IMG/VR virus record: IMGVR_UViG_3300044974_000617
Location: 1 to 28,991 of that record
Reading direction: 5' to 3' (one strand)
Origin: a virus
DNA: 28,991 bases
Each line of letters starts with the position of its first letter. Within the stretch, counting starts at the first letter, position 1. Of the stretch, positions 1,816-28,991 are shown piece by piece. Position numbers and translations under genes: made by a program. The notes under the pieces are model-generated. The model was given only the letters and a program-made list of their open reading frames with translations. It had not been told where the DNA came from and made no database searches.

Positions 1816-3315
1816 TTAGTTAAAAGGTTTTTCTACTAGAATTGGATTGTTTAAGCCAGATGTTAAACCAGCTTGTTTGATTGTTTCTTCTGATACTTTA
1901 TGTAGTGTGATAAGTCCATCATATTCTGAGCCTAGAGTTACAAACTCTTCTTTAACTTTACCAAGTACACTCAGATGATGAATAAATGCACTCTCCTGAC
2001 CAGCTAGTATGAAATGAGCTAATGTAGCCTTTGCTTTCCATATCTCCTTGTTGGTGTTTTTGCCTAGCAACTCAGTTACATTTATTCTCATTCCTGTTGG
2101 GTTTGTAATATAAATACATTTGTTTCCTGCTTTATAACCATTCAACAAAATATAAGTTGTAACTAAGTAGTTGTGCCATATATCAAGTGATTCTTTAAGG
2201 GGTTTAATAGCACTAGCATAGGCTTGTAGAGAGGTTATAACTTTGTCTACATCACCTAAGAACTCCTTGTTTAGAGCATCTAATACTGCTGCTAGAGGGC
2301 CTCCATCTTTATCTAATTTAGCTTGTGCTTTCTTAATATCAGTTGGTAATGAAGAACCCATAATAGTACTAATTAATAATTGCTTCCAACAACCAACACT
2401 AACTCCTACAAGAGCAGCATATTCATACTTTGAATTAGGGTTTGCTTTGTAATCTTCTAACCATTTTGTGTTAATATTAGCAGCTTCAAATTGCTGAATT
2501 AAACCATTAACTTGACTAGCTTGTAAGTCATAGTTATGTAAGTCTTTAATGTCTTTATAAGCTATTTCTTTCATCTCTCTACAAGCATTAGTCATAGCTC
2601 CAAATACTTGACATATTCTACCACTCATTTGCACTTCATAGGCTGGAACATAACTATATAAATCCTCTTCAATCTTTATTGGCTTTTGAGCAACTACTAA
2701 ACTATAAGCAGTGTTAGAGCTATAATATTGACCTCTGATAGTATTGAATTGATCTTTAGTAATACTTAAGTTTGTGAAGTAATCTTCCTTGGCTTGTACA
2801 TATAAAGCTTCTTGTTTGTTAATATAAGCTTCTAAAGACTCTAATCTAATAAGACAATAGGGTATGGAGCTCATTGCATCTTTAACTAGTTGTGGTGCTT
2901 GATGAGTGCTATTTGGTAGTTTAAAACTACTTACTTGTTTGGTATTAACAACCCTACCAGTGAATAAATTGTACTTAGTTGCTTCTATGTCTTCTGCTAG
3001 TGGTAGCTTGCCAGCTTCTAGAAAGAGGTCAATTAACTCTAAGTTAACTGTAAACTCTCTTGATTTATGCTCTGTATAAGAGTAATCAGTTGCCTCTATT
3101 AAACCTCTTTCAACTAGTGATTTCCACCTTGCTTGTGGTATTTTTGCTTGAATTAATTCACATCCAATAGGGGCGGCTTCACCCCATTTAATTAGGTTAG
3201 ATACTAATGTGTGACATAAGAATGTTCTTGAATCCTTGGACAAGTCTAAATCATTAATTAAATCTAGTTGGGCTTTATTAACTTTGTAGAAGTCTATTAT
3301 GTATGCTTGTGTCAT
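1816..3315 (-). CDS. Replication protein: winged-helix plus family-A-like palm polymerase, 499 aa
   Basis: Candidate replicase or initiator. Residues about 30-100 look like a winged helix (ARWKSLVERGLIEATDYSYTEH). The second half carries ordered motifs of family-A DNA polymerases and single-subunit RNA polymerases. These are SGR (231-233, like the T-x-GR motif), YDLQASQVNGL (motif A, D263), K311 followed nine residues later by G320 (motif B, O-helix pattern K...G), a helix AHFILAGQESAFIHHLS (433-449, matching the Q-G-x-x-A-D helix) and EYDGLIT (motif C, D466, with Tyr where His is usual). No exonuclease, helicase or primase domain is seen. The gene starts 1 bp after an RHH regulator and lies beside the iteron region, as in plasmid Rep modules. 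The polymerase call is inferred from motifs; the motif order fits well. Confidence 0.65.
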   Translation of the reverse strand: MTQAYIIDFYKVNKAQLDLINDLDLSKDSRTFLCHTLVSNLIKWGEAAPIGCELIQAKIPQARWKSLVERGLIEATDYSYTEHKSREFTVNLELIDLFLEAGKLPLAEDIEATKYNLFTGRVVNTKQVSSFKLPNSTHQAPQLVKDAMSSIPYCLIRLESLEAYINKQEALYVQAKEDYFTNLSITKDQFNTIRGQYYSSNTAYSLVVAQKPIKIEEDLYSYVPAYEVQMSGRICQVFGAMTNACREMKEIAYKDIKDLHNYDLQASQVNGLIQQFEAANINTKWLEDYKANPNSKYEYAALVGVSVGCWKQLLISTIMGSSLPTDIKKAQAKLDKDGGPLAAVLDALNKEFLGDVDKVITSLQAYASAIKPLKESLDIWHNYLVTTYILLNGYKAGNKCIYITNPTGMRINVTELLGKNTNKEIWKAKATLAHFILAGQESAFIHHLSVLGKVKEEFVTLGSEYDGLITLHKVSEETIKQAGLTSGLNNPILVEKPFN

Positions 3316-3316
3316 C

Positions 3317-3463
3317 TTATTTGGCCTCTAAATAATCAATTAGAATGTCATTAATTAAAGCGGAAACACTGTTTATTTTACTATGTGCTTCTACTAATGC
3401 TTCTAGTTTATTTAGTACTTCCTTTGATATTCTGGTGCTAACTGTTACTTTTGTGGTTTTCAT
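3317..3463 (-). CDS. CopG/Arc-type ribbon-helix-helix regulator, 48 aa
   Basis: The short frame starts at CAT 3461-3463 and stops at 3317-3319, one base before the replication gene. The protein begins MKTTKVTVSTRISKEVLNKL, an RHH pattern: a beta strand (KVTVSTRI), a first helix (EVLNKLEALVEAH), a turn (NSVSA) and a second helix (LINDILIDYLEA). Such proteins dimerise and bind operators with the strand. Plasmid CopG represses its own rep operon from the same position, so copy control of the polymerase is the likely role here. An extended -10 promoter lies 29 bp upstream. Confidence 0.8.
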   Translation of the reverse strand: MKTTKVTVSTRISKEVLNKLEALVEAHSKINSVSALINDILIDYLEAK

Positions 3464-3500: not shown

Positions 3501-3703
3501 TTAATTACTACTATTGTCTACTAATTATTACATTTAATGTATATATTTTTCTCTATGGTAAATCTTAAAACTATTTCAAATAACTACTGTAATTATTGTA
3601 ACAAATATGATATTTATTGGGGGTTGGATCACCAATTTTATGCCTTGTAATGTATATGTAGTAAGGGTTATAGCCATTGTGGATAGTCACCTATACTACC
3701 CTA

Positions 3704-3810
3704 TTTTCCTTCCTTCCCACTTTCCTTCTCTCCTCCTCTTCTCCTCTTCTCCTTTCCTTCCTCCTTCACTTCTTCCTTTCCTTCTTCACCTGCCTCTCTT
3801 CTTCCTTCCT
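3704..3810 (+). repeat. Polypyrimidine tract, 107 nt with four purines
   Basis: Only A3719, A3768, A3788 and G3792 interrupt C/T sequence. Bases 3720-3767 are 48 pure pyrimidines, and a weaker pyrimidine bias continues to 3860. In a genome where T and A dominate, the C content here is exceptional. Such homopurine-homopyrimidine DNA can form triplex structures and blocks or primes polymerases in other systems. Two open frames in it (3607-3867, 3677-3877) are low-complexity Ser/Phe/Leu/Pro artefacts. Confidence 0.85.
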
Positions 3811-3869
3811 ATCACAACTTCACTGCCCTTTCTCTATCTCCAACCTTCCTCTCCCTTCCTTGGATAACC

Positions 3870-3937
3870 TAAATTAGAATTAAATTAGAATTAAATTAAC
3901 TTTAAATTAGAAATTAAATTAGAATTTAAATTAACTT
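3870..3937 (+). repeat. Six 11-bp iterons
   Basis: The units are TAAATTAGAAT (3870-3880), TAAATTAGAAT (3881-3891), TAAATTAACTT (3892-3902), TAAATTAGAAA (3903-3913), TAAATTAGAAT (3915-3925) and TAAATTAACTT (3927-3937). All share TAAATTA. The 11-bp period keeps copies on one face of the helix, as in Rep-binding iterons, and the array is almost pure A/T, so it could also be the unwinding element. Confidence 0.8.
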
Positions 3938-4202: not shown

Positions 4203-5453
4203 TTATTTTTTATTATTCATAATATATGCTATAACCCCAGTAACAGCATCTAGGATGTGGTCATTGCCTTTAACAAACTTGTCAGCTATGACAGTACCAT
4301 CATCCAATAACACCCTTTTATAGCCTTTAATTTGGTCAATTAGTAGGGTTAAATTTCTATTAATAAACAATGTTTTGTTGTAAAACATATTGTTAGTTTT
4401 ATCACATCTATGACTTGGTTTATAGCCAATAGCATTTCTAGGAATAGTTAAAGCTTGTGTTAATCCTCTTCTTCTAGCACTAATAACAAGATCACTTCTG
4501 TCATCTGGCACACAGACTCTATACAATTTATAGTTGTTATTTAGTAGCTGCCACTTATCTAATATCTCATCAACAGTAACAATTGAATCAGACTGCCAAC
4601 TATCTACAACCTCTAATACAAGGCTGTTATCCTCTAACACTAAGCACTTAACAACAGCATAAGCAGCATTTACAGTTCCACTATCAGTACCTAAGTAATG
4701 TATCTCTTTAACAACTCTAAGAGGGTTCATAACTTGCCTATAACTACCTAAGTTATCCTCTGTAAAGCAGTCAAAAACATTAGCAGGACTATCAATAAAC
4801 TCAGACATAAACTCAGCTTGAAAGGCTTTATCACTTAATATAGTCTTTAAATAGTTAATCTTTTCCTCTGTAAATAGCTCATTGTCATACACAGTAAACT
4901 TAAAATGTTTAACTCCATCTCTCATTGTAAGGCGGTGAAAAGGACTTAATAACCCACTAGAAGCAGTACCAATACATAACACCTGACCATTATCTAAGAG
5001 CCTTGGAAGTATAACATAATCAAGTAAATACTCTACTTTATCAACATCTTGAGTCTCATCAAGATAAAACCTATAAAAAGACTTACCTCTTAGATGACTG
5101 CCAGTATTATCAGTACCCATTCCAGTTATGAGTAAGTCTGGTCTTACTCCTTTAAATCTAACTCTAAGTTCTGACTTGTTATATTCAAGTACAACATCCT
5201 TAAGGTCTTCTTCAATAAAGGATAATAAATATAACCAATGAATGCTTTTAGCAACTACTTGTGACTGCATACATATAACAACCCAAGGCCTATCTAATGG
5301 GCTTATAGGGCCGCTATAATTCAAGCAAGCTATGATTGCACTTCTCAACATTAAGTAGCTCTTACCACTACTTCTAGCTGCAACCATAACCTTTATTTTA
5401 CTAGTTTGATCTCTTTCAACTATTGATTGTATTTTTGTAAATTTGATATTCAT
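4203..5453 (-). CDS. terL: Terminase large subunit
   Basis: ATP-driven DNA-packaging motor and headful/cos nuclease, 416 residues, normal length. The ATPase domain shows Walker A AARSSGKS (about 25-32), Walker B FYLDETQ (about 129-135, D then catalytic E) and coupling motif GTASSG (about 162-167). The C-terminal nuclease domain has YLGTDSG (first acidic residue, about D257), VPDDRSD (about 314-320) and HILDAVTG (last Asp, about 401). The start overlaps the stop of the GIY-YIG gene (TAATG), giving coupled translation. No small subunit is recognised nearby. It acts with the portal encoded at 27000-28361. Confidence 0.93.
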   Translation of the reverse strand: MNIKFTKIQSIVERDQTSKIKVMVAARSSGKSYLMLRSAIIACLNYSGPISPLDRPWVVICMQSQVVAKSIHWLYLLSFIEEDLKDVVLEYNKSELRVRFKGVRPDLLITGMGTDNTGSHLRGKSFYRFYLDETQDVDKVEYLLDYVILPRLLDNGQVLCIGTASSGLLSPFHRLTMRDGVKHFKFTVYDNELFTEEKINYLKTILSDKAFQAEFMSEFIDSPANVFDCFTEDNLGSYRQVMNPLRVVKEIHYLGTDSGTVNAAYAVVKCLVLEDNSLVLEVVDSWQSDSIVTVDEILDKWQLLNNNYKLYRVCVPDDRSDLVISARRRGLTQALTIPRNAIGYKPSHRCDKTNNMFYNKTLFINRNLTLLIDQIKGYKRVLLDDGTVIADKFVKGNDHILDAVTGVIAYIMNNKK

Positions 5454-6112
5454 TATTCAATTCCTAGCTCTAATTTAAGTTGTTTGACTCTATCTATAGC
5501 TTCTTGTTCTGTTGCATAAGAGCCAAAGTATTTGTTCTTACCTTCCAAAATAAATTGAACTTTATATTTACGTTCTAATTTATTAAAACTATAATGTCTA
5601 ACATTTCTTTTAAGTTTTACAGGCTTTGCTAGACACTTTTCTTTATAATTCAACAATTCCTCTTGTGTTAAAGTCTTGATATATTCAACCTCTTTAATTG
5701 CTTCATCTTCTAAATGGTGATAAGAGAAAGTTATCATTTTACCTTGTATATGATAATAAGTTTGATATTGTTTACTACTATATCTATAGTACTTAGAGCC
5801 TTCTTGTTTAAATCCTATTCTACTCCCAGCAGCAGGACAATCATTAAATTCAGGTTTTAGCAAGTCCATATAGTATTGTTCCCTTTCAGTTAGTAAACTT
5901 AAATCAACTACTTCTTCTAATACTTCAAATGTTAAATCTTCTATTGAATATTTATTAAAATGATTTTGTAAGTGATTATTAGGGTTCTTATTATTCTTTA
6001 AAGTACTTAAATGCATCCTCCACCTCTGCCCTATATCAACACTCTGACCAACATACTTTTTACCATTAACTTTACTAGTAATTAAATATATTCCACTTAC
6101 TTTACTTTTCAT
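5453..6112 (-). CDS. GIY-YIG endonuclease with two AP2-like modules
   Basis: A 219-residue paralogue of the enzymes at 206 and 25328. GIY (GIYLI), YVG (KYVGQSVDIGQRW), the following Arg and His, and the catalytic Glu (TEREQYY) are present. Two AP2-like modules follow: GSKYYRY...EDEAIKEVEY and RHYSF...FGSYATEQEAIDRV. The gene is sandwiched in an operon, overlapping the RHH gene upstream by 11 bases and the terminase start downstream by one base. A nuclease beside terL is often a homing element; in some cos phages an HNH nuclease next to terminase takes part in packaging. Whether this GIY-YIG enzyme does so is open. Confidence 0.85.
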   Translation of the reverse strand: MKSKVSGIYLITSKVNGKKYVGQSVDIGQRWRMHLSTLKNNKNPNNHLQNHFNKYSIEDLTFEVLEEVVDLSLLTEREQYYMDLLKPEFNDCPAAGSRIGFKQEGSKYYRYSSKQYQTYYHIQGKMITFSYHHLEDEAIKEVEYIKTLTQEELLNYKEKCLAKPVKLKRNVRHYSFNKLERKYKVQFILEGKNKYFGSYATEQEAIDRVKQLKLELGIE

Positions 6113-6682: not shown

Positions 6683-7383
6683 TGTTATTACCACCTAATT
6701 TATCTAAATTAGAGTTGCCATTAGATAAAGAATCAGTTGGTTTCTATCAAATTATTAATAACAAACCAACTGATATAACTTTATTAACTAACACTTCATT
6801 ACTACCTTCTAGTTACTTTTCATTAAGTGTAAAAGACATAATAATGTTACATAAATTAGATAATGTTGTTATATTTCATACCCATATTAACCAATTATCA
6901 TACCTATCTAATGAGGACATTAAAGGCTCTAATAGTTGTGGTTTTCCCTACTTAATGAGTAACTTAATAACAGGTAAATGGGATTATTATAACCCCAATG
7001 AAGTGCCACTACTAGAAGGTAGAAAGTATAGTTATAGCCACTCTAATTGTTATACATTAGTAAGAGATTACTACAAACAAACTTACAATAGGACATTAAA
7101 TAACTATTATCTAACAACACCAACAGCATATTTAGAAGATGGTTGGAATGAGTTTTATAAATACTTTAAAGCTGAGAGTTTTACCCCTGTTGATGCCCCT
7201 AAAGAAGGTGATGTGTTACTATTTAGAATTGGTAGATGTAATGCTAGTTGTCAGGCCAATCATTGTGGTATTTATTTAGATGATAATAAGGTTCTTCATC
7301 ATTTACAGGATCAAGAATCTAAGATTGAGCCACTAACAACCAGACTTAGAAACCATTTAGTAAGTATAATGAGATTAACATAA
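6682..7383 (+). CDS. K: Tail tip protein K: JAMM and NlpC/P60 peptidase domains
   Basis: The 233-residue protein has the domain order of lambda K. The N-terminal JAMM/MPN metallopeptidase has E17 and the complete H66-T-H68-x7-S76-x-x-D79 motif. The C-terminal NlpC/P60 cysteine peptidase has C123 (SNCYTL) and H194 (NHCGIYL), with further His residues at 206-207. In lambda-like tails K helps tail tip assembly, and the NlpC/P60 domain is thought to cut cell-wall peptides at DNA entry. It starts on the TAATG of the 41-aa gene and ends on a TAATG shared with the next gene. Lambda places K next to L and I; here both are elsewhere. With the M23 domain of the tape measure, this is the only cell-wall enzyme found. 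Confidence 0.88.
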   Translation: MLLPPNLSKLELPLDKESVGFYQIINNKPTDITLLTNTSLLPSSYFSLSVKDIIMLHKLDNVVIFHTHINQLSYLSNEDIKGSNSCGFPYLMSNLITGKWDYYNPNEVPLLEGRKYSYSHSNCYTLVRDYYKQTYNRTLNNYYLTTPTAYLEDGWNEFYKYFKAESFTPVDAPKEGDVLLFRIGRCNASCQANHCGIYLDDNKVLHHLQDQESKIEPLTTRLRNHLVSIMRLT

Positions 7384-10888: not shown

Positions 10889-13800
10889 ATGAATATGATT
10901 ACAGGATCTGGAGGAATAGTTTCTCCTGGTGGTAAGGGTTCTAATAATAGTTCTGGTCAAAGTCAATCAAGAACTCCTGTTGAAGCTCCTAACAGTCTTA
11001 TAAGTAAGGATTATGCTAGATTAATTGGTGTTATATCTGAGGGTCAAATTGCAGGACAAGTATCAAACAATATATTAAAGGATATTTTCTTAGACAATAC
11101 TCCAATAATGAATGTTGATGGTTCTTTAAATTACCCTTATTATGACTTAGATTTTAGACTTGGCACTGCTGGACAAACTAAATTAAAAGGTAGTAATAGA
11201 ATATCTAACACTATTAATATTGGCACTAAAGTAACTAATAGTGGGGGTGGAATTATTCACACCATTACAGATCCAGAAGTGGATAGTTTTGTTATAAATA
11301 TTGCAACTCCAGTATTACAAACTATTGACAATACTAATGGGGATATTAATCCAGCATCTGTTTATTTTAGAGTTCAAATTAGTTCAGGTGGTGGTTCTTT
11401 TGTAACTTATCTAGCTGATGGATTTAACGGTAAAAGCTCAGGAACTTATAGTAGAGACTATGAGTTTAGACTACCTGGTTCAGCCCCTTGGAGTGTTAAA
11501 TTAATTAGAGATACTGCTGACTCTACAAGTAGTAAATTACAAAATGATTTATATTTTAATAGAGGCACTGAGATAAAATTTAACAATAATACTTATGCTA
11601 ATAGAGCAGTTTTTTATGCTTCATTTGATGCTGAAAGATTTAATAGTGTACCTACTGTTACAGCCTTATTAAAGGGCTTAATTATTAAAGTACCTCATAA
11701 CTATAATCCAACAACTAGAGCCTATTCAGGCTTCTTTAATGGCACCTTGGTTAGTGCTTATTCTAATAATCCTGCCTGGGTTTTATATGACATATTGACT
11801 AATACAAGGTATGGAATGTCTATACCAACTGGACAAATTGATGTATTTAGTATGTATAGTTTGGCCCAGTATTGTGATGAATTAGTTAGTAATGGTATGG
11901 GTGGAAGTGAGCCTAGATATGTGTTTAATGCCTATATAAACAGCAAAACAGAGGCTTTTACTCTTATTAATAGTGTATGTTCTGCTTGTAGATGTAAGTT
12001 ATATTTAGAGAGCGGTCTTATAACTGTTGTACCTGATAAACCTAGACCCATTAGTGGTTTTGTTAGTAGGTCTAATGTAGTTGTTGATGATGATCAAATA
12101 CCTTTTAAATACACCACATCATCTGCTTTAGAAAGAACAACAATAGTTAATGTAACTTGGTTTAATCCCGCCAATAAGTATAAAGCTGAAACTGAAAATG
12201 TATTTGTACAAAGTTTAATTAATACTTATGGTGAGCAGTCAACTGATGTTACTGTTATGGGTTGTACAAGTAGAGGTCAAGCAGTTAGATATGCTAGATG
12301 GTTAATATATACATCTTGTTTTCAAACTAAAACAGTTGAATTTAATGTTAGCTATGAAGGGCTTAATTATGCCCCTAGTGACGTTATTTCTATTAATGAT
12401 GAATTACATAGTAAAGTTAGATTAGCAGGTAGATTAGCCCCTAGCTCTACTTCTATATTGAATTTTGACAGTATTATAAATACTGCTATTGGTACTACTT
12501 ATACAGTTAGATGTGTAGATTCTATTGGTAACATTATGAACTCTACTGCTGTTGGAGTTGGCCCAACATCCTCACTAAACTTACAAACTCCTTTAAGTAA
12601 CACCCCAGCAACTAACAGTCCTTTTTCACTAACAACTACTATAATTGGTCAATCTTATCAAGTTATATCTATCAAAGAAAAAGAGAATAAGATATTTACT
12701 GTTAATGCAATTATTTATGATGAAACCAAGTGGCAAAAGATAGAAACTTATTCTTTAAGTACTCCAAGTACATTCTTTAATATAGATAATGTATCTGCTC
12801 CTGTTAACTTAATTACTAATGAAAAGTTAGTAAATATTAATAACTTGTATGTCAGAGTTGACTTGAATTTAGTATGGTCACAGCCTATTACTAGTGTTGG
12901 TTTATATGCTTATGAAGTGGGTTATAAATTGGTTAGTGATGCTAATTACACTGTAGCCACAACCACATCTAATGAGTACTTAATAACCAATGTGGAGCCA
13001 GGTTTATATGATATTAGAGTTAGAAGTTTAAGTAAATTTGGCAACCCTTCAGCTTATAATAGCTCTGAAGTACAAGTCCTTGGTTTATTAGATGCTCCAA
13101 AGGATATTACTAACTTTACTATTGATTCAAACACACAACAAACTGTAACTCTTAGTTGGGATAAATCAGTTGATATAGATGTTGTTATAGGTGGTTTGAT
13201 TGAGATTAGACATAATGTTAGAACAACTTTAATTAGTTGGGAAGACAGTGTATTAATGGGTGTTTATAGTGGCACTACAACAAGAGCTGTACTACCTTTA
13301 TTACAAGGAACATACTTAATAAAAGCCAAGGATAGTATTAATTTATATAGTACTCACTTTGCCTCTGTTAATACTAATTTCATCAAAATTAATGCTTTAA
13401 ATATTTTATTAAATAATAGTCAACAACCATCATTTAGTGGTTATAGAAACTATCTATCTTATGATAGTATACTTGCTGGTTTAATATTGGCAGATACTTC
13501 TAAGTTTGATGATGATGTTGATCCATTTAATAATACAGAAATGTTTAATCTAGATGCTTCTGGATATGCAACATCAGAGGGTTATTATTACTTTGATAAT
13601 AATGTAGTTGAACTAAGTTCTATATATTCAGTAAACATTAGAATGAGTTTAAAAGCAGTTTCTTTTAATCAGTTGGACATATTTAACAATGACACTGAAA
13701 TATTTAATTCTGCTGAAATTTATAATGGTGTTATTGGTGAAAGTAATGTAATGCCTCAAATTAGTATTAGTAATGATAATGTTACTTATAGTGATTGGCA

Positions 13801-14184: not shown

Positions 14185-14228
14185 AAAACCCTCCTAGAAA
14201 CTTAATTAAAAGGCTTTAGGAGGGTTTT
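14185..14228. terminator. Bidirectional hairpin terminator after J
   Basis: AAAACCCTCCTA (14185-14196) pairs with TAGGAGGGTTTT (14217-14228), with T runs on both sides. It lies between J and the converging receptor-binding cassette. Confidence 0.85.
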
Positions 14229-14242
14229 TATTAAACAGCTTA

Positions 14243-14566
14243 TTATTCTAATTCTAATGCTGTTTTAAATATTAAATCAGTATCTAGACTCAGCTTAGTA
14301 GCCAGTACTTCTATTAAAGGATGATCCTCTTTAATTTCTGTGGCATACTCCCAGTTAACTTGAACAGCTCTGTCTAATGTTAATATAGCTGCTTCAACCT
14401 TGTTTAAAAGCTTGAGTTGAAGAAAAGCCAACCTTAATCTCCTTGCATCAATTGTGCGGATAAGCGCTGGTGATTGATTAGCTGCAATGATTGCATCTAT
14501 CTCGTTTTGAGTGAGCTGGATAGTTTTTAGCTCACCTGTACTTAAATTGTATTCAAGACGTTCCAT
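14243..14566 (-). CDS. Hypothetical protein downstream of receptor-binding protein, 107 aa
   Basis: Begins MERLEYNLSTGELKTIQLTQ, a pattern seen in small proteins encoded next to phage fibres, followed by a helical region (RRLRLAFLQLKLLNKVEAAI). The start is 5 bases after the stop of the receptor-binding gene. It could be a fibre chaperone or a minor virion protein. Its base composition is richer in G+C than most neighbours, as is the preceding gene, suggesting that the two were acquired together. Confidence 0.6.
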   Translation of the reverse strand: MERLEYNLSTGELKTIQLTQNEIDAIIAANQSPALIRTIDARRLRLAFLQLKLLNKVEAAILTLDRAVQVNWEYATEIKEDHPLIEVLATKLSLDTDLIFKTALELE

Positions 14567-14571
14567 AATTT

Positions 14572-15075
14572 TTACTCGTAAAGGATATTAATTGTTCCAG
14601 CATCAAAAACAGCAGTACCTGATGCGGTAGTAATGCGGACTCTATCTAATGCTCCTGAGAGGGCAGGAGAAGAGCCTGCGCTATTCCATCCTCCTGATGT
14701 TACATTCATAAATGCTAGCGTGGAACTTGACACCCAAAGATCCCCCCCCAGAAGACTCAATACGGCTATTCCTGAGAGAATGTTTGTGTTTACTGAACCA
14801 ATACCTCCAAGACTAAAACCATTTGTAACAACACCTGCTCCAGTCCCAGTCCAGCTCTGCGAAACATAACCTGTATTTGAGATAGAGCCAGACCCTATTT
14901 GTATCAAGATAATTGATAATGCTGTATTTGTTGATACACGGTCAAACATTATGGTGATTCTCTTGACCCAACTAGGGATACCAGTAAAATCAATAGAAGT
15001 CCCTGAGGTGCTGGCAACTGAAGCAGCGAGAGTAAGAGGCTGCGTTAGTTTTGCTTGGATTATATCGTAAGCCAT
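14572..15075 (-). CDS. Receptor-binding/tail fibre tip domain protein, 167 aa
   Basis: The protein carries the widespread fibre-tip motif series IDFTGIPSWVKRITIMFD, ILIQIGSG and DRVRITT...FDAGTINILYE at the very C-terminus. In other phages this domain ends long fibres and is thought to bind receptors; here it is almost the whole protein, as if only the tip module were kept or acquired. Much of it is glycine/serine/threonine-rich beta structure. Composition is near 50% GC around 14641-14700, against about 30% elsewhere. A run of eight G (minus strand, C at 14742-14749) lies in the LLGGDLW codons. Confidence 0.75.
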   Translation of the reverse strand: MAYDIIQAKLTQPLTLAASVASTSGTSIDFTGIPSWVKRITIMFDRVSTNTALSIILIQIGSGSISNTGYVSQSWTGTGAGVVTNGFSLGGIGSVNTNILSGIAVLSLLGGDLWVSSSTLAFMNVTSGGWNSAGSSPALSGALDRVRITTASGTAVFDAGTINILYE

Positions 15076-15091
15076 TTGTTTATTTTTCCTA

Positions 15092-15634
15092 TTAACCTAA
15101 GTTATTAATAATGTCAGCAAGAGTTGTGGGTTTACCTTTAATCTTAGTTTTAACATTAGATTCACTCACTGTAACTGCTGGAACTGATGCACCTTTAACA
15201 AGCCACTTACCAGAGGTGTTTAACCATTCACTAGCAAATGTTTTTAAATCAACAACTTTACCATCTTTATTAACATAAACCTGACCATTTTCATCAACTT
15301 CTGCATACTTAGAAACTACATCATCTAGTAATTTTGTTGCTGCTTCTGGGTTAAGTGTATTATTAACATAAGATGAAATAGCGGCCCTTCTAGTTAAGTC
15401 TTTTGTTGCTTTATCTTTAAGTGCCAACTCATCTTTAAGTTGTTGTAATTGTGTTGCAATGCTTTGTTCTTCAAGAGATGTTGAAGGTTGTTTAATAGCC
15501 TTTCTAATGTTTACACTATGACTATTAAGAGTAGCTTGAACTGTACTTAAAAGCTCAGCTTTAAATGCCTCTGGATCAAAGTTTAATTGTTGACCAGAAG
15601 GAGTTGAAGTTATTGTTTCTGTGTTTTCTAACAT
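15092..15634 (-). CDS. Probable capsid scaffolding protein, 180 aa
   Basis: Acidic, helical protein with a central coiled coil (SLEEQSIATQLQQLKDELAL) and a disordered N-terminus, followed by VDENGQVYVNKDGKVV and a basic/polar end. This is the typical build of internal scaffolds of HK97-fold capsids that lack a fused delta domain, and the capsid gene here has no obvious delta domain. It is 16 bases upstream of the receptor-binding gene and far from the capsid gene, unlike the usual order. The function is inferred from architecture. Confidence 0.55.
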   Translation of the reverse strand: MLENTETITSTPSGQQLNFDPEAFKAELLSTVQATLNSHSVNIRKAIKQPSTSLEEQSIATQLQQLKDELALKDKATKDLTRRAAISSYVNNTLNPEAATKLLDDVVSKYAEVDENGQVYVNKDGKVVDLKTFASEWLNTSGKWLVKGASVPAVTVSESNVKTKIKGKPTTLADIINNLG

Positions 15635-15820
15635 TTAGTTATACCTTGGTTTATACAGTCAGTGCTGTTTTTTTAATGTTTTCTATATAGTAATAATATA
15701 CTATATATCTTATTAATAATGGGCACTTTATTCTAATGCTTATAAGTTAATAATAATTGCCCACCTAATGCATCCCTAAGTATAGTATATTATATATAGT
15801 AAACACAACAAACAAATATT
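15635..15820. promoter_or_regulatory. Divergent promoter/operator with nested dyads
   Basis: ATAATATACTATA (15693-15705) and its exact inverse TATAGTATATTAT (15781-15793) bracket a second inverted pair, TGGGCA (15720-15725) / TGCCCA (15758-15763). Both pairs have nearly the same centre (about 15742). The outer elements overlap likely -10 boxes of the scaffold and RHH genes, so this is a good operator candidate for the RHH protein. Confidence 0.55.
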
Positions 15821-16003
15821 ATGTTATTAGATAAAGAGATTAAATTAAGACTACCAAGTGAACTAATTGAAAAGATGAAGTCACAAGAACATCAATACAC
15901 CACAAAGATTAGAGATATATTGTTAGAGCATTATGGTATGACTCTTGTACAAATTAAGTTAGAAAGATTAAACAATTCAATTCTAGTAGAAGAAACCAAA
16001 TAA
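15821..16003 (+). CDS. Ribbon-helix-helix protein, 60 aa
   Basis: RHH fold: strand EIKLRLP, helix SELIEKMKSQEHQ, then YTTKIRDILLEHYGMTLVQIK. It is a paralogue of the 6102-6272 protein. The stop is 1 base before the Bro-N/nuclease gene, so the two form an operon. It probably represses this promoter and perhaps the divergent scaffold operon. Confidence 0.75.
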   Translation: MLLDKEIKLRLPSELIEKMKSQEHQYTTKIRDILLEHYGMTLVQIKLERLNNSILVEETK

Positions 16004-16004
16004 A

Positions 16005-16931
16005 ATGACACAGCAATTATTAACACCACAGACAACTACAACTGATGCTCTTAATGCTTTTACTAATCAATACAATATTAGATATATATTAAGTTCACAG
16101 GGCATTGCTTATTTTATAGCTCAAGATTTATCATTAGCTCTAAACTTAGATAAAGATGATTTTAATACTAATTATTTATGTTCCCTTGAAATCAAAGGTA
16201 ACCCTTCAATCAGACTACTTGAACAAGAATCATTAAAACAATTCAAAGCAGCTTATAAGGAACAGATTGGACCACTCCCCAATTCTTTAAAGTTTACTCC
16301 TAAGCTACTTATTTGTACTTTAGAAGTAGCAACTAACTACATTCTTAAGAGTAAAAAAGAAGTACAAAAACAACTTAATTCAATTACTCTAGGTGCTACT
16401 AATAAGCAAGTAATACAAGAGAATTTACAAACATCTAGTAGTTTAGTTAATCCTCACTTTACAAAAGAAATTGATCTTCAAATGGCATTAGCATTTCTTT
16501 CTACTTGTGGTAATTATAGAATTAGATGTGAGGAATCATTAGCAGATATAACTGCTAATAAACAAAAACACAGAAGATTAGATATGGTTAATATCAAATA
16601 TTCTAAGGGCAAAAAGATAGTTACAATCTATGAATTAAAGGTTAATTCAATCACCTTAGAACTATTAACAGAAAACTTAAATAAACACTATCTAGAGCTT
16701 GCTAGATGCCACTACAAGACACCTTATGTAAAGTTGGTATACATTGCACCTAATGCACCAGAACAAGCTGCTATGGACTTATTAGCATACTCTCCTGATG
16801 TATCTATAATGTTATTAAAAGACTTTACTTCTATGTTACTAAAGAGTGCTGAAAAACGCCACAAATCTGATTCATACTTTGTAAAAAAGTTACTACCTGA
16901 ATCATATCCAGTCAAACAATTAATGTTCTAA
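16005..16931 (+). CDS. Bro-N-like protein with PD-(D/E)XK-type nuclease signature
   Basis: 308 residues. The N-terminal part (about 24-48, NIRYILSSQGIAYFIAQDLS, then LALNL) resembles the Bro-N DNA-binding domain of phage antirepressors. The C-terminal half has HRRLDMVNIKYS (D193) and, after a short strand pair, IYELKVNSIT (E210, K212). This is the spacing D...E-x-K of PD-(D/E)XK nucleases. A mostly helical linker joins them. It may be a DNA-processing or host-DNA-degrading enzyme, or a regulator. The pairing of these two domains is unusual. The nuclease call is motif-based and tentative. Confidence 0.5.
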   Translation: MTQQLLTPQTTTTDALNAFTNQYNIRYILSSQGIAYFIAQDLSLALNLDKDDFNTNYLCSLEIKGNPSIRLLEQESLKQFKAAYKEQIGPLPNSLKFTPKLLICTLEVATNYILKSKKEVQKQLNSITLGATNKQVIQENLQTSSSLVNPHFTKEIDLQMALAFLSTCGNYRIRCEESLADITANKQKHRRLDMVNIKYSKGKKIVTIYELKVNSITLELLTENLNKHYLELARCHYKTPYVKLVYIAPNAPEQAAMDLLAYSPDVSIMLLKDFTSMLLKSAEKRHKSDSYFVKKLLPESYPVKQLMF

Positions 16932-16972
16932 GCCCTCTTAATAACACTTACTTATAATCTGTCATAAACAAT

Positions 16973-17021
16973 AATAAAGCCTCTTAGAAAGCTATTTAAC
17001 AGCTAACTAAGAGGCTTTATT
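16973..17021. terminator. Bidirectional hairpin terminator
   Basis: AATAAAGCCTCTTAG (16973-16987) is perfectly complementary to CTAAGAGGCTTTATT (17007-17021), with an inner AGCT pair in the loop. It ends both the Bro-N operon and the converging tape measure gene. Confidence 0.85.
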
Positions 17022-17043
17022 ACTTTAATAGTCCTAAGTTATA

Positions 17044-20000
17044 TTAGGCAAATAACATACCACCTGGGCGGTTCTTTTCATCAGCTATAACCTTTCTAAC
17101 TGCATCACTTATCTTACTTGATAAGTTAGAGCCTTGTTGACCTGTTATATTAGCACTACCATCATTGTTAATAGTTACATTAACATTACTAACAACACCA
17201 CCACCTTGAGAACCAATAGCACCAATTGATCTGTTTATTGCCATTAGTTCATTAAGTTTTGGTATAGGTAATACAGCCTCACTATCAGCACCTTCACCAA
17301 TTAAAGCTAATGTTGGTTGATTAACAATACCACCATTTGCAAAAGGAATAATACCACCTGTTAAAGCACTTATACCTGCACTTACAATACTACTTCCACC
17401 ACTACTATTAGAATTACCACCAAATAAACCACCTAATAGGTTAGTAATTAACTGGTTCATAGCCATATCTAATATCTTACTAGCAATGTTACTAAGCATA
17501 TCAACTACAGCTTGACCAACTGATTTAGTACCTTGTATAACACTCTTGAAAGCCTCACCAAGACCAATAACTAACTCAGTTGTAACAATCCTACCTAAGT
17601 CTTGGAACTGAGCCTTGATGTTGCTAATATCAGCATTTCTAATCTGTTCAATATACTCAGCAGCCTTCTTAAATTGTTCTGGATCTAATACATCCTTTAA
17701 AGACTCAAGTTGAGCCAAACTATCAGAAGCTTTCTTGTTAGCATCAACAGTGCCTTGTCTACGCTTATAATCATTATAATCAAGAGTGCCCATTGTCTGT
17801 TGATTGTAGCTATCAGCAGTTGATTTAGCCTCTGTTTGTAATGTTTTAATAAAGTCAATTGCACCACTTCTTCTACCACTTCTAGCAAGATCTAGTTCAG
17901 CACCTTGAGCACTTAAAGTATAAGTTTGTTGGTTAACTAACTCATCTTTAATAGCTTGAAGACCCTCAGTACTAACCTTTAATCTAGTATATTCAGCTAT
18001 CAGTTTATCTGTCTCAGTTATTGATTTAGCAACAGCATCTAATTGAACTTTATACTTATCCTTTATGTTATTTAATTGTAAATCATAAGCATATTTAGCC
18101 TTTTTATTAGTGTCTGTTTCTCTTTCATTAAGAGCTTGTAAACCTAATGATGTTGCTTGAATAGCTAGTTGAGCAGTCCTTAACTTCTCCTCTTCAACTC
18201 TCTTTTTATTAGTAAGTTCAAATGCTTTAAGTATGTTTTCTAACTCAATATCTAATGTAAGTAGTTTAGCCTTAGATTCAGCCTTAATAGCTGCAATTTT
18301 ATCATCATTAGCCTTTTTATTAAGAGGTTTTGCTTTAGTATCTAAGTTTAATAATTCAATACCTCTAGCCTCTTCTCTAGCTAAATCTTCTCTAGCATCA
18401 TTGTTCTTGTTGGTCTTTTCAACAAGTGCTTTTAGTTCAGCATTTTCAATGTTTAATGCAGCATCTCTCTTAGCTCTAATAAGTTTTAATTCCGCATCTT
18501 CCTTTTCATATTTAGCTTTTAACTCAGGTAAAATATTATCAAATAAGTCTCTGGTTTCATTTAAAGTGCCACCACTAAGACTTGATAAAGCACCACCTAA
18601 AGTACCAGTACTAGTAGCAACTTTATTACCCTTGCCAAGTAAGTCAGGATAGGTAGGTCTAACACTAAGATATTTATCAATCTCTCCTGAAATTTCAACA
18701 GCTTTACCACCTACTAACTTTTCAATATGTAAGTGACTAGCAGTACTTCCACCAGTACTACCTTGTGTTCCAACAATAGTATATGGGCCAACCTTATCTC
18801 CTTGTTTAACTTTAACTTCACTTAAATGAGCATATAGTACTTCACTGCCATCAGGATATCTAACTACAACATAATTGCCATAACCACCCTCATCATAACC
18901 AACTTCAGTAACTACTCCATCCATAGCACCAGTAGCAATAGGACTCTTATCACCAAAGTCATAATCAGTACCACTATGCATTCTGCCATTTCTCATACCC
19001 ATTGGAGAGGTCATTAAACCAGCATCAATTCTAAGTAAAGAAGATGGACTAACAAGCTCTATGTTATTAGATCCTTTATTAGCAGATCCTATATTAGCAG
19101 ATCCTATATTAGCAGATAATGGTTTTATTCCAGCACTAGCAGAAGTAAGTCCACCTACACCTACAAAGGGATTAACAAAAGAAGGTGTATGGGGAGGAGG
19201 AGCAACTTCTTCATTCAAATAAGAGTTACCTCCATAATTAACAATATTGCCTTCAACAGTACCTTGTGTTCTGAATGAAGTTCTATTCTTAATAACCCTT
19301 TCTGCCTCTCCAGCATATTTATACATATCCCTAAGTTGACCTTCAACATCTTGGATACTATAACCTAATCTACTAGCAATATTAAAAATCCCTGCAACAG
19401 TCTTTAACTCTTCTTTTAATTGCTCCATTGAAAGATTAGTTTTATTTGGAAACAAAGCTGCAAACTGTCCTTCAGCAGCTAACTGATCTTCTACATTAGT
19501 ACCAAAATTACCATAATTAGCTCTCTGTCTGTTAATAACTGCAACGTGAGCGCCCTGACCCTCAACTAAATCTATAAGTGCATAAGCATACCTAGAAGAG
19601 TCATTTCCACTGGATAGCTTTGCACTTTCCTGTCTTGCATAATTATCTATAGCTCCCAACTTTCCTAACTTAGCTGCAAGATCTGCTAACCCCGCAATAC
19701 CTTTAATAATGTCAGCTAATGTCTGCATAACTAACTTCATATTCTCTAAGAAAGCTTTACTGCCTTCAATTAGATTAGTCATATTTTTAGGATCTCTAAG
19801 CCACATAACAACTCCCCTAGCAATATTACTAAGTTCTGTCATAGCACCTTTAGCTAATTGTTGAATAGATTGAGACATCCCTTCAATATACCCAGGATTA
19901 GCTTTTAACCAGTCAGCAAACTCTCTAGCTTGGGCATTAATTTCATTAAACACATCAGCGTTTTTCAAGTCATCTGCTAATGTTGTAAGTAGTTGCATAG

Positions 20001-21759: not shown

Positions 21760-21780
21760 ATTGGCAAAATAATAAATAAT

Positions 21781-21816
21781 AAAAAGCTCTTAGATTTATA
21801 TTTCTAAGAGCTTTTT
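21781..21816. terminator. Bidirectional hairpin terminator, second of a pair
   Basis: AAAAAGCTCTTAGA (21781-21794) pairs with TCTAAGAGCTTTTT (21803-21816). It lies downstream of the capsid gene on the minus strand. The two tandem hairpins insulate the converging tube and capsid genes, probably two of the most highly expressed genes. Confidence 0.85.
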
Positions 21817-21850
21817 ATTGAGTTAAGTTAAATATAAAACTTAACTAAAA

Positions 21851-23447: not shown

Positions 23448-23476
23448 TTAATCTCTAATTAATTTCTAATAAAAAC

Positions 23477-23524
23477 ATAAAACCTCTTAGATTGCTATTT
23501 AAATGGCTCTCTAAGAGGTTTTAT
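23477..23524. terminator. Bidirectional hairpin terminator
   Basis: ATAAAACCTCTTAG (23477-23490) pairs with CTAAGAGGTTTTAT (23511-23524). The stem and part of the loop (GCTATTTAA) match the terminator at 16973. Confidence 0.85.
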
Positions 23525-23588
23525 AGTTTAAAGGTAAGAACATAAGGAGATGCTAAATAAAGGGCCTTGTGGCTCAATCTAAAAGCAG

Positions 23589-25327: not shown

Positions 25328-26401
25328 TTAACTAATACCTAACTCTTTTCTAACTTCAATAACTCTATCAATTGCTTCTTGTTCAGTTAAATAAGAGCCA
25401 TAATATTTATTTCTACCGTTAGTATATATTTCAACTCTAAATTTACCAGAACACTTATCAACATTATAGTTTTTACCTTGTTTTCTTGTTTTAGGCTTGG
25501 CTCTACATTCTTGCTCAAATTTAATTAATTCCTCATTGGTTAAGGTTTTGAGATATTCAACCTCTTTAATTGCTTCCTCTTCTGTATGATGAGGGTTAAA
25601 GTTTAAGAACTTACCTGATACAGTATAAAAGGTTCTATAAAGTTGATCTTTTTTATTATATGTATAGTATTTGGCATCTTTACGAGGTTTACAAGGTCTA
25701 GATAAACACTCCTCTTTATACTTTAACAACTCATCATTAGTTAATGTTTTAAGGTATTCAACCTCTTTAATAGCCTCCTCTTCTGTATGATGAAGATTGA
25801 AATATATATTATTAAATCTTACTCTAAACATATTTGAGGCTTTATGAAGGTCATAATGTACTGCTCCTCTAGACTCTCTTTGAGGTTTAACTAAGCACTC
25901 TTGTTTATATTTTAATAATTCATTATCAGTTAAAGTTTTAAGATATTCCACTTCTTTAATTGCCTCTTCTTCTGTGTAATGATATCTAAAATTTAACTGT
26001 TTACCTTGTACATTGTAATAGGTTCTATATAAATTATTTTCAAACTTATAGTATTTACTACCTTCTTTCTTATAGCCTAAAGAACTTCCTGCAACTTTAT
26101 GAGTATTAAAATGGCATTCTTTCCAATTATTTAAGTAAGTCTGCTCTCTATCTAATAACAACTGTTTAAAGTCTTGTGAGCTTAACTCACCTCTTTCAAC
26201 TACCTCTAATATAGAGAATACTAAATCATCTTCTCCATACTTGTTATAATGATTTTGTAAATGGGGTGAGTGATGTTTATTACACCTTAATTCATTTAGA
26301 TGTATGCCCCATCTAATGCAAAATCTACTAGCACTGCCAACATATCTCTTACCGTTTACTTTACTTATTATTAAGTATATTCCTGCTTGTTTACTATTCA
26401 T
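25328..26401 (-). CDS. GIY-YIG endonuclease with four AP2-like modules
   Basis: 357 residues, the longest of the three paralogues. The nuclease domain (about 1-110) has GIY at 7-9, YVG at 20-22, R30, H34, the catalytic Glu (DREQTYL) and Asn. Four modules follow, starting near GSKYYKF, VHYDLHK, KYYTYNK and KNYNVDK. Each ends in TEEEAIKEVEYLKTL except the last (YLTEQEAIDRV). The nuclease domain is very close to that at 206. It lies 61 bp downstream of L, on the same strand. Like the others it probably cuts a specific long site, with module number setting the contact length. Confidence 0.88.
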   Translation of the reverse strand: MNSKQAGIYLIISKVNGKRYVGSASRFCIRWGIHLNELRCNKHHSPHLQNHYNKYGEDDLVFSILEVVERGELSSQDFKQLLLDREQTYLNNWKECHFNTHKVAGSSLGYKKEGSKYYKFENNLYRTYYNVQGKQLNFRYHYTEEEAIKEVEYLKTLTDNELLKYKQECLVKPQRESRGAVHYDLHKASNMFRVRFNNIYFNLHHTEEEAIKEVEYLKTLTNDELLKYKEECLSRPCKPRKDAKYYTYNKKDQLYRTFYTVSGKFLNFNPHHTEEEAIKEVEYLKTLTNEELIKFEQECRAKPKTRKQGKNYNVDKCSGKFRVEIYTNGRNKYYGSYLTEQEAIDRVIEVRKELGIS

Positions 26402-28452: not shown

Positions 28453-28991
28453 ATGATTATAAAGTTTATAGGGCTGGATTATCCTGATATAGAAATTAAT
28501 AGCAATAGTTTACAAACTATTATTAAAGGCTTGATTTGTAATTTTGGTGAAGCATTTAAACAAGAAATTAAAGGTATTAAATTAACTACTTATACTACTA
28601 ATAGTGATGATGATGTGGTCCAAGATGTTGGTCAATTAGTTCTTAATGATAAGAGCTATGTGCCTATTGTTGGTGACATTATGTACATTTGTAAGGCTGT
28701 TGAAGGTGGTGGTGGTAACTTCTTTAATATTATATTTGGTGCTGTTTTAATTGGTGCTGGATTGTTATTTGCAAGCCCCTTGTTATTAGGTATTGGTGCA
28801 ACTTTCTTTGTTAGAGGTTTAAGTGGTGTTTTAGCTCCAACTACACAAACTCCAGATAAGGTTGAAAGACAGGATAATTATCTGTTTAGTGATACTTTAA
28901 ATACCAATAGAGAGTCGGATGCTATACCATTGATTTATGGTACTTATTTGTGCCAATCAATACCTGTCCTTAGCTCCAGTATAAGTAAGGT
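28453..28991 (+). CDS. I: Tail assembly protein I, N-terminal 179 codons (continues at base 128)
   Basis: This is the 5' part of a 183-residue protein that reads off the right edge and finishes at 138-140 once the 127-bp end overlap is collapsed. It resembles the lambda tail tip assembly protein I. It has an N-terminal ubiquitin-like stretch (MIIKFIGLDY...), a central glycine run (VEGGGG, about residue 90) followed by a hydrophobic segment (about residues 92-125, FNIIFGAVLIGAGLLFASP), and a conserved tail with PLIYGTY. In lambda, I acts with K and L in assembling the tail tip. Here it follows the portal gene and a small terminator at 28370-28391, so it may have its own promoter; a TATAAT lies near 28423. 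The family call rests on the glycine/hydrophobic segment and PLIYGTY. Confidence is good because the frame stays open across the join. Confidence 0.8.
   Translation, partial: MIIKFIGLDYPDIEINSNSLQTIIKGLICNFGEAFKQEIKGIKLTTYTTNSDDDVVQDVGQLVLNDKSYVPIVGDIMYICKAVEGGGGNFFNIIFGAVLIGAGLLFASPLLLGIGATFFVRGLSGVLAPTTQTPDKVERQDNYLFSDTLNTNRESDAIPLIYGTYLCQSIPVLSSSISK
28865..28991. repeat. Terminal direct repeat, right copy (assembly overlap)
   Basis: Second copy of the 127-bp end sequence. One copy should be removed before the genome is used as a circle. Confidence 0.93.

Follow-up and report, generated by a model that had tools for sequence, protein, structure and literature searches.

The window analysed here is a 28,991-nt stretch of viral DNA. 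Positions 1816–3315 hold a single 499-codon open reading frame (ORF) that fits this span exactly and lies on the minus strand. The original prediction had placed a minimal family A-like polymerase at this locus; the location was right, and the strand, which had been left unnamed, can now be added. Together with the upstream region, the locus contains the following features, in window coordinates.

1816–3315, minus strand: polymerase gene, TV-Pol-like, superfamily A, 499 aa (ORF, fold, homologues, dN/dS 0.084)
1918–1920, minus strand: D466 of motif C (YDG; HDG in most relatives), Asp in 20/20 homologues, at the hairpin 459–464/467–471
1993–1995, minus strand: E441, in the helix preceding motif C, Glu in 20/20
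2383–2385, minus strand: K311 of motif B (K-x8-G) in the fingers, Lys in 20/20, with no Arg at −4
2527–2529, minus strand: D263 of motif A, Asp in 20/20, on strand 259–264 of the model
2617–2619, minus strand: R233 of the SGR motif, adjoining a beta-hairpin, Arg in 18/20
2692–2844, minus strand: minimal thumb of two long helices, residues 158–208 (DSSP of the model), matching the bi-helical TV-Pol thumb in PMC2579912
2983–3288, minus strand: winged-helix-like N-terminal domain, residues 10–111 (separate model, pLDDT 79; MarR, Orc/Cdc6 and Rep matches with Z only 5–6)
3317–3463, minus strand: RHH/CopG-like ORF of 48 aa directly upstream of the polymerase (translation; RHH matches in the upstream ORFs of relatives)
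3663–3699, minus strand: block conserved with contig L004, adjoining the polypurine tract on its downstream side (GTAGTATAGGTGACTATYCACAAWGGCTAYAACCCTT; sequence comparison)
3696–3861, minus strand: polypurine tract on the polymerase coding strand, length about 165 bp, GC content 48% against 31% for the genome (0 in 100 shuffles)
3870–3934, no strand assigned: AT-rich 11-bp direct tandem repeats (TAAATTAGAAT, 5.6 copies; Tandem Repeats Finder), resembling iterons or an unwinding element

The residues on which the polymerase call had rested, S231-G232-R233, D263, K311-x8-G320, G439-Q440-E441 and Y465-D466-G467, are all where they had been predicted. All 20 aligned homologues share D263, K311, E441, D466 and G467 unchanged, and since these homologues are divergent, many being just 20–37% identical to the window protein, the motifs are not a product of chance. 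The two homologues that depart from R233 are Vibrio jumbo-phage rows, which are shifted there in the alignment. The motif C Tyr is confined to the window protein and its L004 counterpart, with His in nearly all other homologues, and the finger position −4 from K311 is V, K or I (V also in gp030 of Microcystis phage Ma-LMM01) and never Arg. Comparison with the L004 copy gave a dN of 0.054 and a dS of 0.638, a ratio (0.084) that reveals strong purifying selection on the polymerase. The replacement of the motif C His and the missing Arg of the RxxxK finger motif could point to a catalytically dead origin-binding protein that has merely retained the fold, but with both Asp, the Lys and the Glu invariant among the 20 homologues we regard this as extremely improbable.

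An AlphaFold2 model of the 499-aa protein, built with 11 homologues, reached a pLDDT of 83 and a pTM of 0.79. As anticipated, fold searching identified it as a superfamily A palm and fingers with a minimal thumb and no exonuclease. Residues approximately 125–499 matched the Klenow fragment (1kfd) with a Z of 17.0 over 318 residues at 4.0 Å, Pol theta with 17.1, T7 DNA polymerase with 16.0 and yeast mitochondrial RNA polymerase with 15.7 and 15.1, and Foldseek agreed with this search. The model runs from the thumb helices (158–182 and 187–208) through a hairpin (213–222), which is followed by R233 (DSSP of the model and alignment), to the palm strand with D263, the fingers, the Q/E helix and the hairpin with D466. 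The marks of a superfamily A palm, two catalytic Asp, the fingers Lys and the hairpin Arg, are thus present in order. Absence of a palm had been named as grounds for abandoning the prediction; the predicted fold has one, and in the model D263 and D466 are both on the expected palm strands. Matches in a viral structure library include phage PolA proteins and the replication protein of the Zamilon virophage, which we take to be a relative of Sputnik. V13 of Sputnik is a described TV-Pol (PMC2579912).

Modelled alone, residues 1–125 show the order helix-strand-helix-helix-strand-strand-helix, in line with the winged-helix-like N-terminus that had been proposed. Among initiators this domain matched a Rep–DUE complex (8ac8, Z 5.7) and ORC2 (1w5s, Z 5.9), and MarR proteins scored alike; the fold search gave no firm initiator-family match, its weak matches (Z 5–6) being indistinguishable from one another.

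The mitochondrial RNA polymerase scores are near those of the DNA polymerases, as would suit a DNA-dependent RNA polymerase of T7/mitochondrial type, whose task would be to transcribe phage genes or solely to supply primers. One mitochondrial RNA polymerase alignment row covers residues 13–494; most rows cover the catalytic part alone. Q268 lies at +5 from D263, the position of the steric gate in Pol I. This position is Gln in the window protein and His in Ma-LMM01 rather than the Glu of Pol I, and a transcriptional role has likewise been considered for divPolA2 (PMC11348598). DNA polymerases nevertheless score slightly higher, no T7-type promoter-recognition domain is seen in the window polymerase, and the gene stands singly beside an origin-like region and is also present on a small plasmid. 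We judge an RNA polymerase to be quite unlikely.

At the sequence level, Pfam, NCBIfam, PHROGs and PDB sequences gave no usable polymerase link, even with a profile, and such a link came only from the fold search and from Ma-LMM01 gp030. Pfam DNA_pol_A (PF00476) matched neither the window nor any of 11 family members; the family corresponds in part to PHROG 30690, for which no function is annotated, and is without a Pfam or NCBIfam model. In hhalign, gp030 matched the family profile with an E of 9.7e-18 across the winged helix, thumb, palm and fingers. It is the only protein in the Ma-LMM01 genome to match the profile, carries motif C (QHDG) at the expected place and is the closest described relative of the family.

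The paper that established the TV-Pol family (Iyer, Abhiman, Aravind 2008, PMC2579912) mentions cyanophage Ma-LMM01 by name. The gp030 gene adjoins a transposase gene, and from this neighbour we infer that gp030 is very probably the TV-Pol described there. The candidate gp014 of the same phage was rejected, as it has no match to the family. The Arg of the TV-Pol finger motif RxxxK is missing in the family and in gp030 alike, so we call the family TV-Pol-like and not a strict member. We also rejected divPolA2 as the parent family, since it showed no significant match to AUR84708 (hhalign probability 5%, E 0.0076).

We conclude that the genome is complete, with a closed map of 28,864 bp, because it bears an exact 127-bp end repeat (28865–28991 equal to 1–127), probably an assembly overlap (k = 127), and because the independent contig L003 crosses the end junction, where the last ORF is complete and continues over the junction. 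Within the limits of family scans and six-frame searches, this complete genome encodes no other recognised replication protein, as had been claimed. Scans of nearly all likely genes returned structural, lysis, GIY-YIG or unfamiliar families only, and six-frame searches, whose positive controls were detected, gave no match in the window to DnaB_C, DNA_pol_A, D5_N, SSB or Toprim_2. A very divergent helicase could conceivably be hidden among the ORFs of no assigned function. Profile searches for a D5-like helicase (PF08706) were negative in the window genome (G000) and in the genomes G002–G006.

The window also carries three homing-type GIY-YIG endonuclease genes with related C-terminal repeats (206–1096, 5453–6112 and 25328–26401), the first and third sharing 74% DNA identity across about 740 bp. 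Near-perfect, terminator-like intergenic palindromes lie at 16972–17022, 21778–21819 and 23473–23529. A conserved phage protein is encoded at 16005–16931 and at 1729–2853 of contig L015, the window copy being phrog_37791 and the L015 copy matched by eye.

Close relatives of the polymerase are encoded by L003 (100% identity) and by L004 (90%), a 94-kb contig with other gene content. More distant ones occur in jumbo phages of Dickeya, Erwinia, Yersinia and Vibrio, in small and large viral contigs, and in chromosomes or contigs of Cuspidothrix, Picosynechococcus, Nostoc and Calothrix. Among named relatives, a Cuspidothrix prophage protein is, with good support, the one nearest to the window and L004 pair, and this suggests a filamentous freshwater cyanobacterium as the likely host. 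The gene is also found on a 13.7-kb Calothrix plasmid and on a comparable Calothrix contig of 13.4 kb beside a serine recombinase. On Calothrix NIES-4105 plasmid6 (L007) the homologue is formed by 12455–13693 joined with 1–486; this likely replication gene is absent from the annotation because it crosses the record start. Prophage copies adjoin RHH and KilAC/Rha/AntA genes, neighbours of the kind reported for TV-Pols (PMC2579912).

Two observations concern individual contigs. In L014, a 190-kb phage, an otherwise intact homologue has an in-frame TGA just past SGR (6688–6690), through recoding, error or decay. L004 encodes, at 14200–18840 on the minus strand, a 1546-aa protein without a Pfam match whose GDTDGDG resembles the active-site loop of multisubunit-type RNA polymerases.

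This distribution bears on whether the enzyme replicates its phage at all. The gene has a patchy occurrence (present in 7 of the 342 genomes from the order that includes G009), its 90% identical copy lies amid the other gene content of L004, the jumbo-phage relatives sit in genomes with their own replication genes, so that the family enzyme is not always a replicase, and G003 also carries a regular PolA. It might then be an accessory or repair polymerase or mobile cargo, with the host replisome copying the whole phage. Strong purifying selection and the repeated link to RHH and regulator genes oppose this, as does the finding that the polymerase is the sole recognised replication gene in the window, in G002, G004 and G005 (for the families searched) and on the small plasmid. 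Overall, we find an accessory or cargo role rather unlikely.

Upstream of the polymerase, the 48-aa ORF has no Pfam RHH match of its own, and small upstream ORFs in relatives do match RHH (L015, RHH_1, 2.5e-7; L022, 6.6e-4, just under the cut-off). The 19-base core of the conserved block was found in viral_contigs only in this phage group and in the contig of L004. The window has no second polypurine tract of this sort, and the predicted excess of RNA:DNA over DNA:DNA hybrid stability in the tract, calculated with nearest-neighbour values, has a z of −6.4, the next best in the genome being −2.5. One or two such tracts also lie upstream in L004, L015 and L016/L023, where shuffles give almost none, and a tract lies downstream of the homologue in L014 and L015. 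Upstream tracts are absent in L007, L022, L024, L025 and L046–L049; we therefore rejected the tract as a universal family signature and regard the R-loop as hypothetical. In L017 a pyrimidine-rich repeat takes the place of the tract, and L049 has a G/T-rich low-complexity stretch upstream of its homologue (527–815), perhaps a different strand-biased tract in the same place. No iteron array comparable to that in the window was found upstream of the homologues in relatives.

The evidence best fits a polymerase that binds the origin, initiates replication there and then leaves the work to the host replisome. We consider it somewhat probable that the gene product is a TV-Pol-like, origin-specific initiating (prim-)polymerase and not a whole replication machine. 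The winged helix would bind the AT-rich repeats beside the gene, and the polymerase would make or extend the first primer at these upstream repeats; this primer may be an RNA that stays paired with the polypurine tract in an R-loop. Expression would be kept down by the RHH protein in the way that CopG restrains plasmid Rep genes, and the forks would pass to the helicase and replicative polymerase of the host, whose DnaB, DnaG and Pol III are at the disposal of the phage. The Klenow-like fold, the gp030 homology, the status of lone recognised replication gene in a complete genome, the Calothrix plasmid occurrence, the RHH/KilAC/Rha/AntA neighbours, the origin-like upstream region and the priming by CcPol-MP (PMC10061031) all argue for an initiating polymerase. 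Against it count the missing tract in most other members, the jumbo-phage relatives with their own replication genes, the absence of the helicase partner that many TV-Pols have, the N-terminal domain without a firm initiator-family match, and the SSB-like partner that TV-Pol priming has so far needed (PMC10061031) and that is not seen in the window. A bolder version, which we think unlikely, is that a single protein serves as origin binder and as primase-polymerase alike: it would open the AT repeats with its winged helix, the primer would be supplied or replaced by an R-loop formed on the purine-rich leader of the protein's own gene, phage helicase, primase and SSB would be unneeded, and the same module would run small cyanobacterial plasmids.

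Both this class of enzyme and the prim-pol proposal were known before. New here are the winged helix at the N-terminus, the missing helicase partner and the origin-like upstream region. In the literature searched we met no account of such a head, of the missing partner, of the compact neighbourhood or of the occurrence of this family in cyanobacterial prophages and plasmids. Searches linking TV-Pol and cyanobacteria, or polypurine tracts, R-loops, replication origins and phage, returned no relevant paper. TV-Pols are considered close to the ancestor that DNA polymerase I shares with T7 RNA polymerase. The 28.9-kb phage is a very small and self-contained example, in which a single enzyme stands with a single regulator-like ORF and a short origin-like region; relatives sit on 13-kb cyanobacterial plasmids, and there is no helicase partner to confuse an assay. 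A tentative function can likewise be proposed for the unannotated PHROG 30690 family, which is spread over cyanobacterial prophages and jumbo phages.

TV-Pols were described in 2008 as minimal superfamily A prim-pols of mobile elements, one cyanophage included, and proposed as combined primase-polymerases (PMC2579912), so a minimal prim-pol is no new idea. A 2024 survey further found some duplodnaviruses without almost all replication genes (PMC11348598). Given both, the replication solution of this phage is less unusual than the original prediction supposed. The window polymerase shares with TV-Pols and gp030 a minimal palm, fingers and two-helix thumb without exonuclease, and with TV-Pols the conserved hairpin Arg and two Asp, a standalone size of 400–600 aa, and recombinase and KilA-type gene neighbours. 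It differs in having no D5 helicase partner, a D5-like helicase being fused or adjacent in a subset of TV-Pols, and in its winged-helix N-terminus, where the described TV-Pol domain is all-helical. Like divPolA2 (PMC11348598), it is a divergent PolA of phages that has a palm and an N-terminal domain of its own and neither a classical thumb nor an exonuclease; divPolA2, however, accompanies a regular PolB, and AUR84708 has no significant sequence match to our family. The CcPol-MP primase of SCC elements (PMC10061031) is likewise an A-family polymerase that works as a primase and is counted among TV-Pols, a likeness to the window polymerase drawn by description only. CcPol primes DNA synthesis in vitro with its partner MP and is said to be without the N-terminal domain found in many TV-Pols (PMC10061031); it differs from the window enzyme in needing this SSB-like partner and in having an operon helicase. 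Finally, bacterial DNA polymerase I differs in its 3′–5′ and 5′–3′ exonucleases, its longer thumb and its Pfam DNA_pol_A match, none of which the window polymerase has, while the two share palm, fingers and motif order, with a Z of 17.
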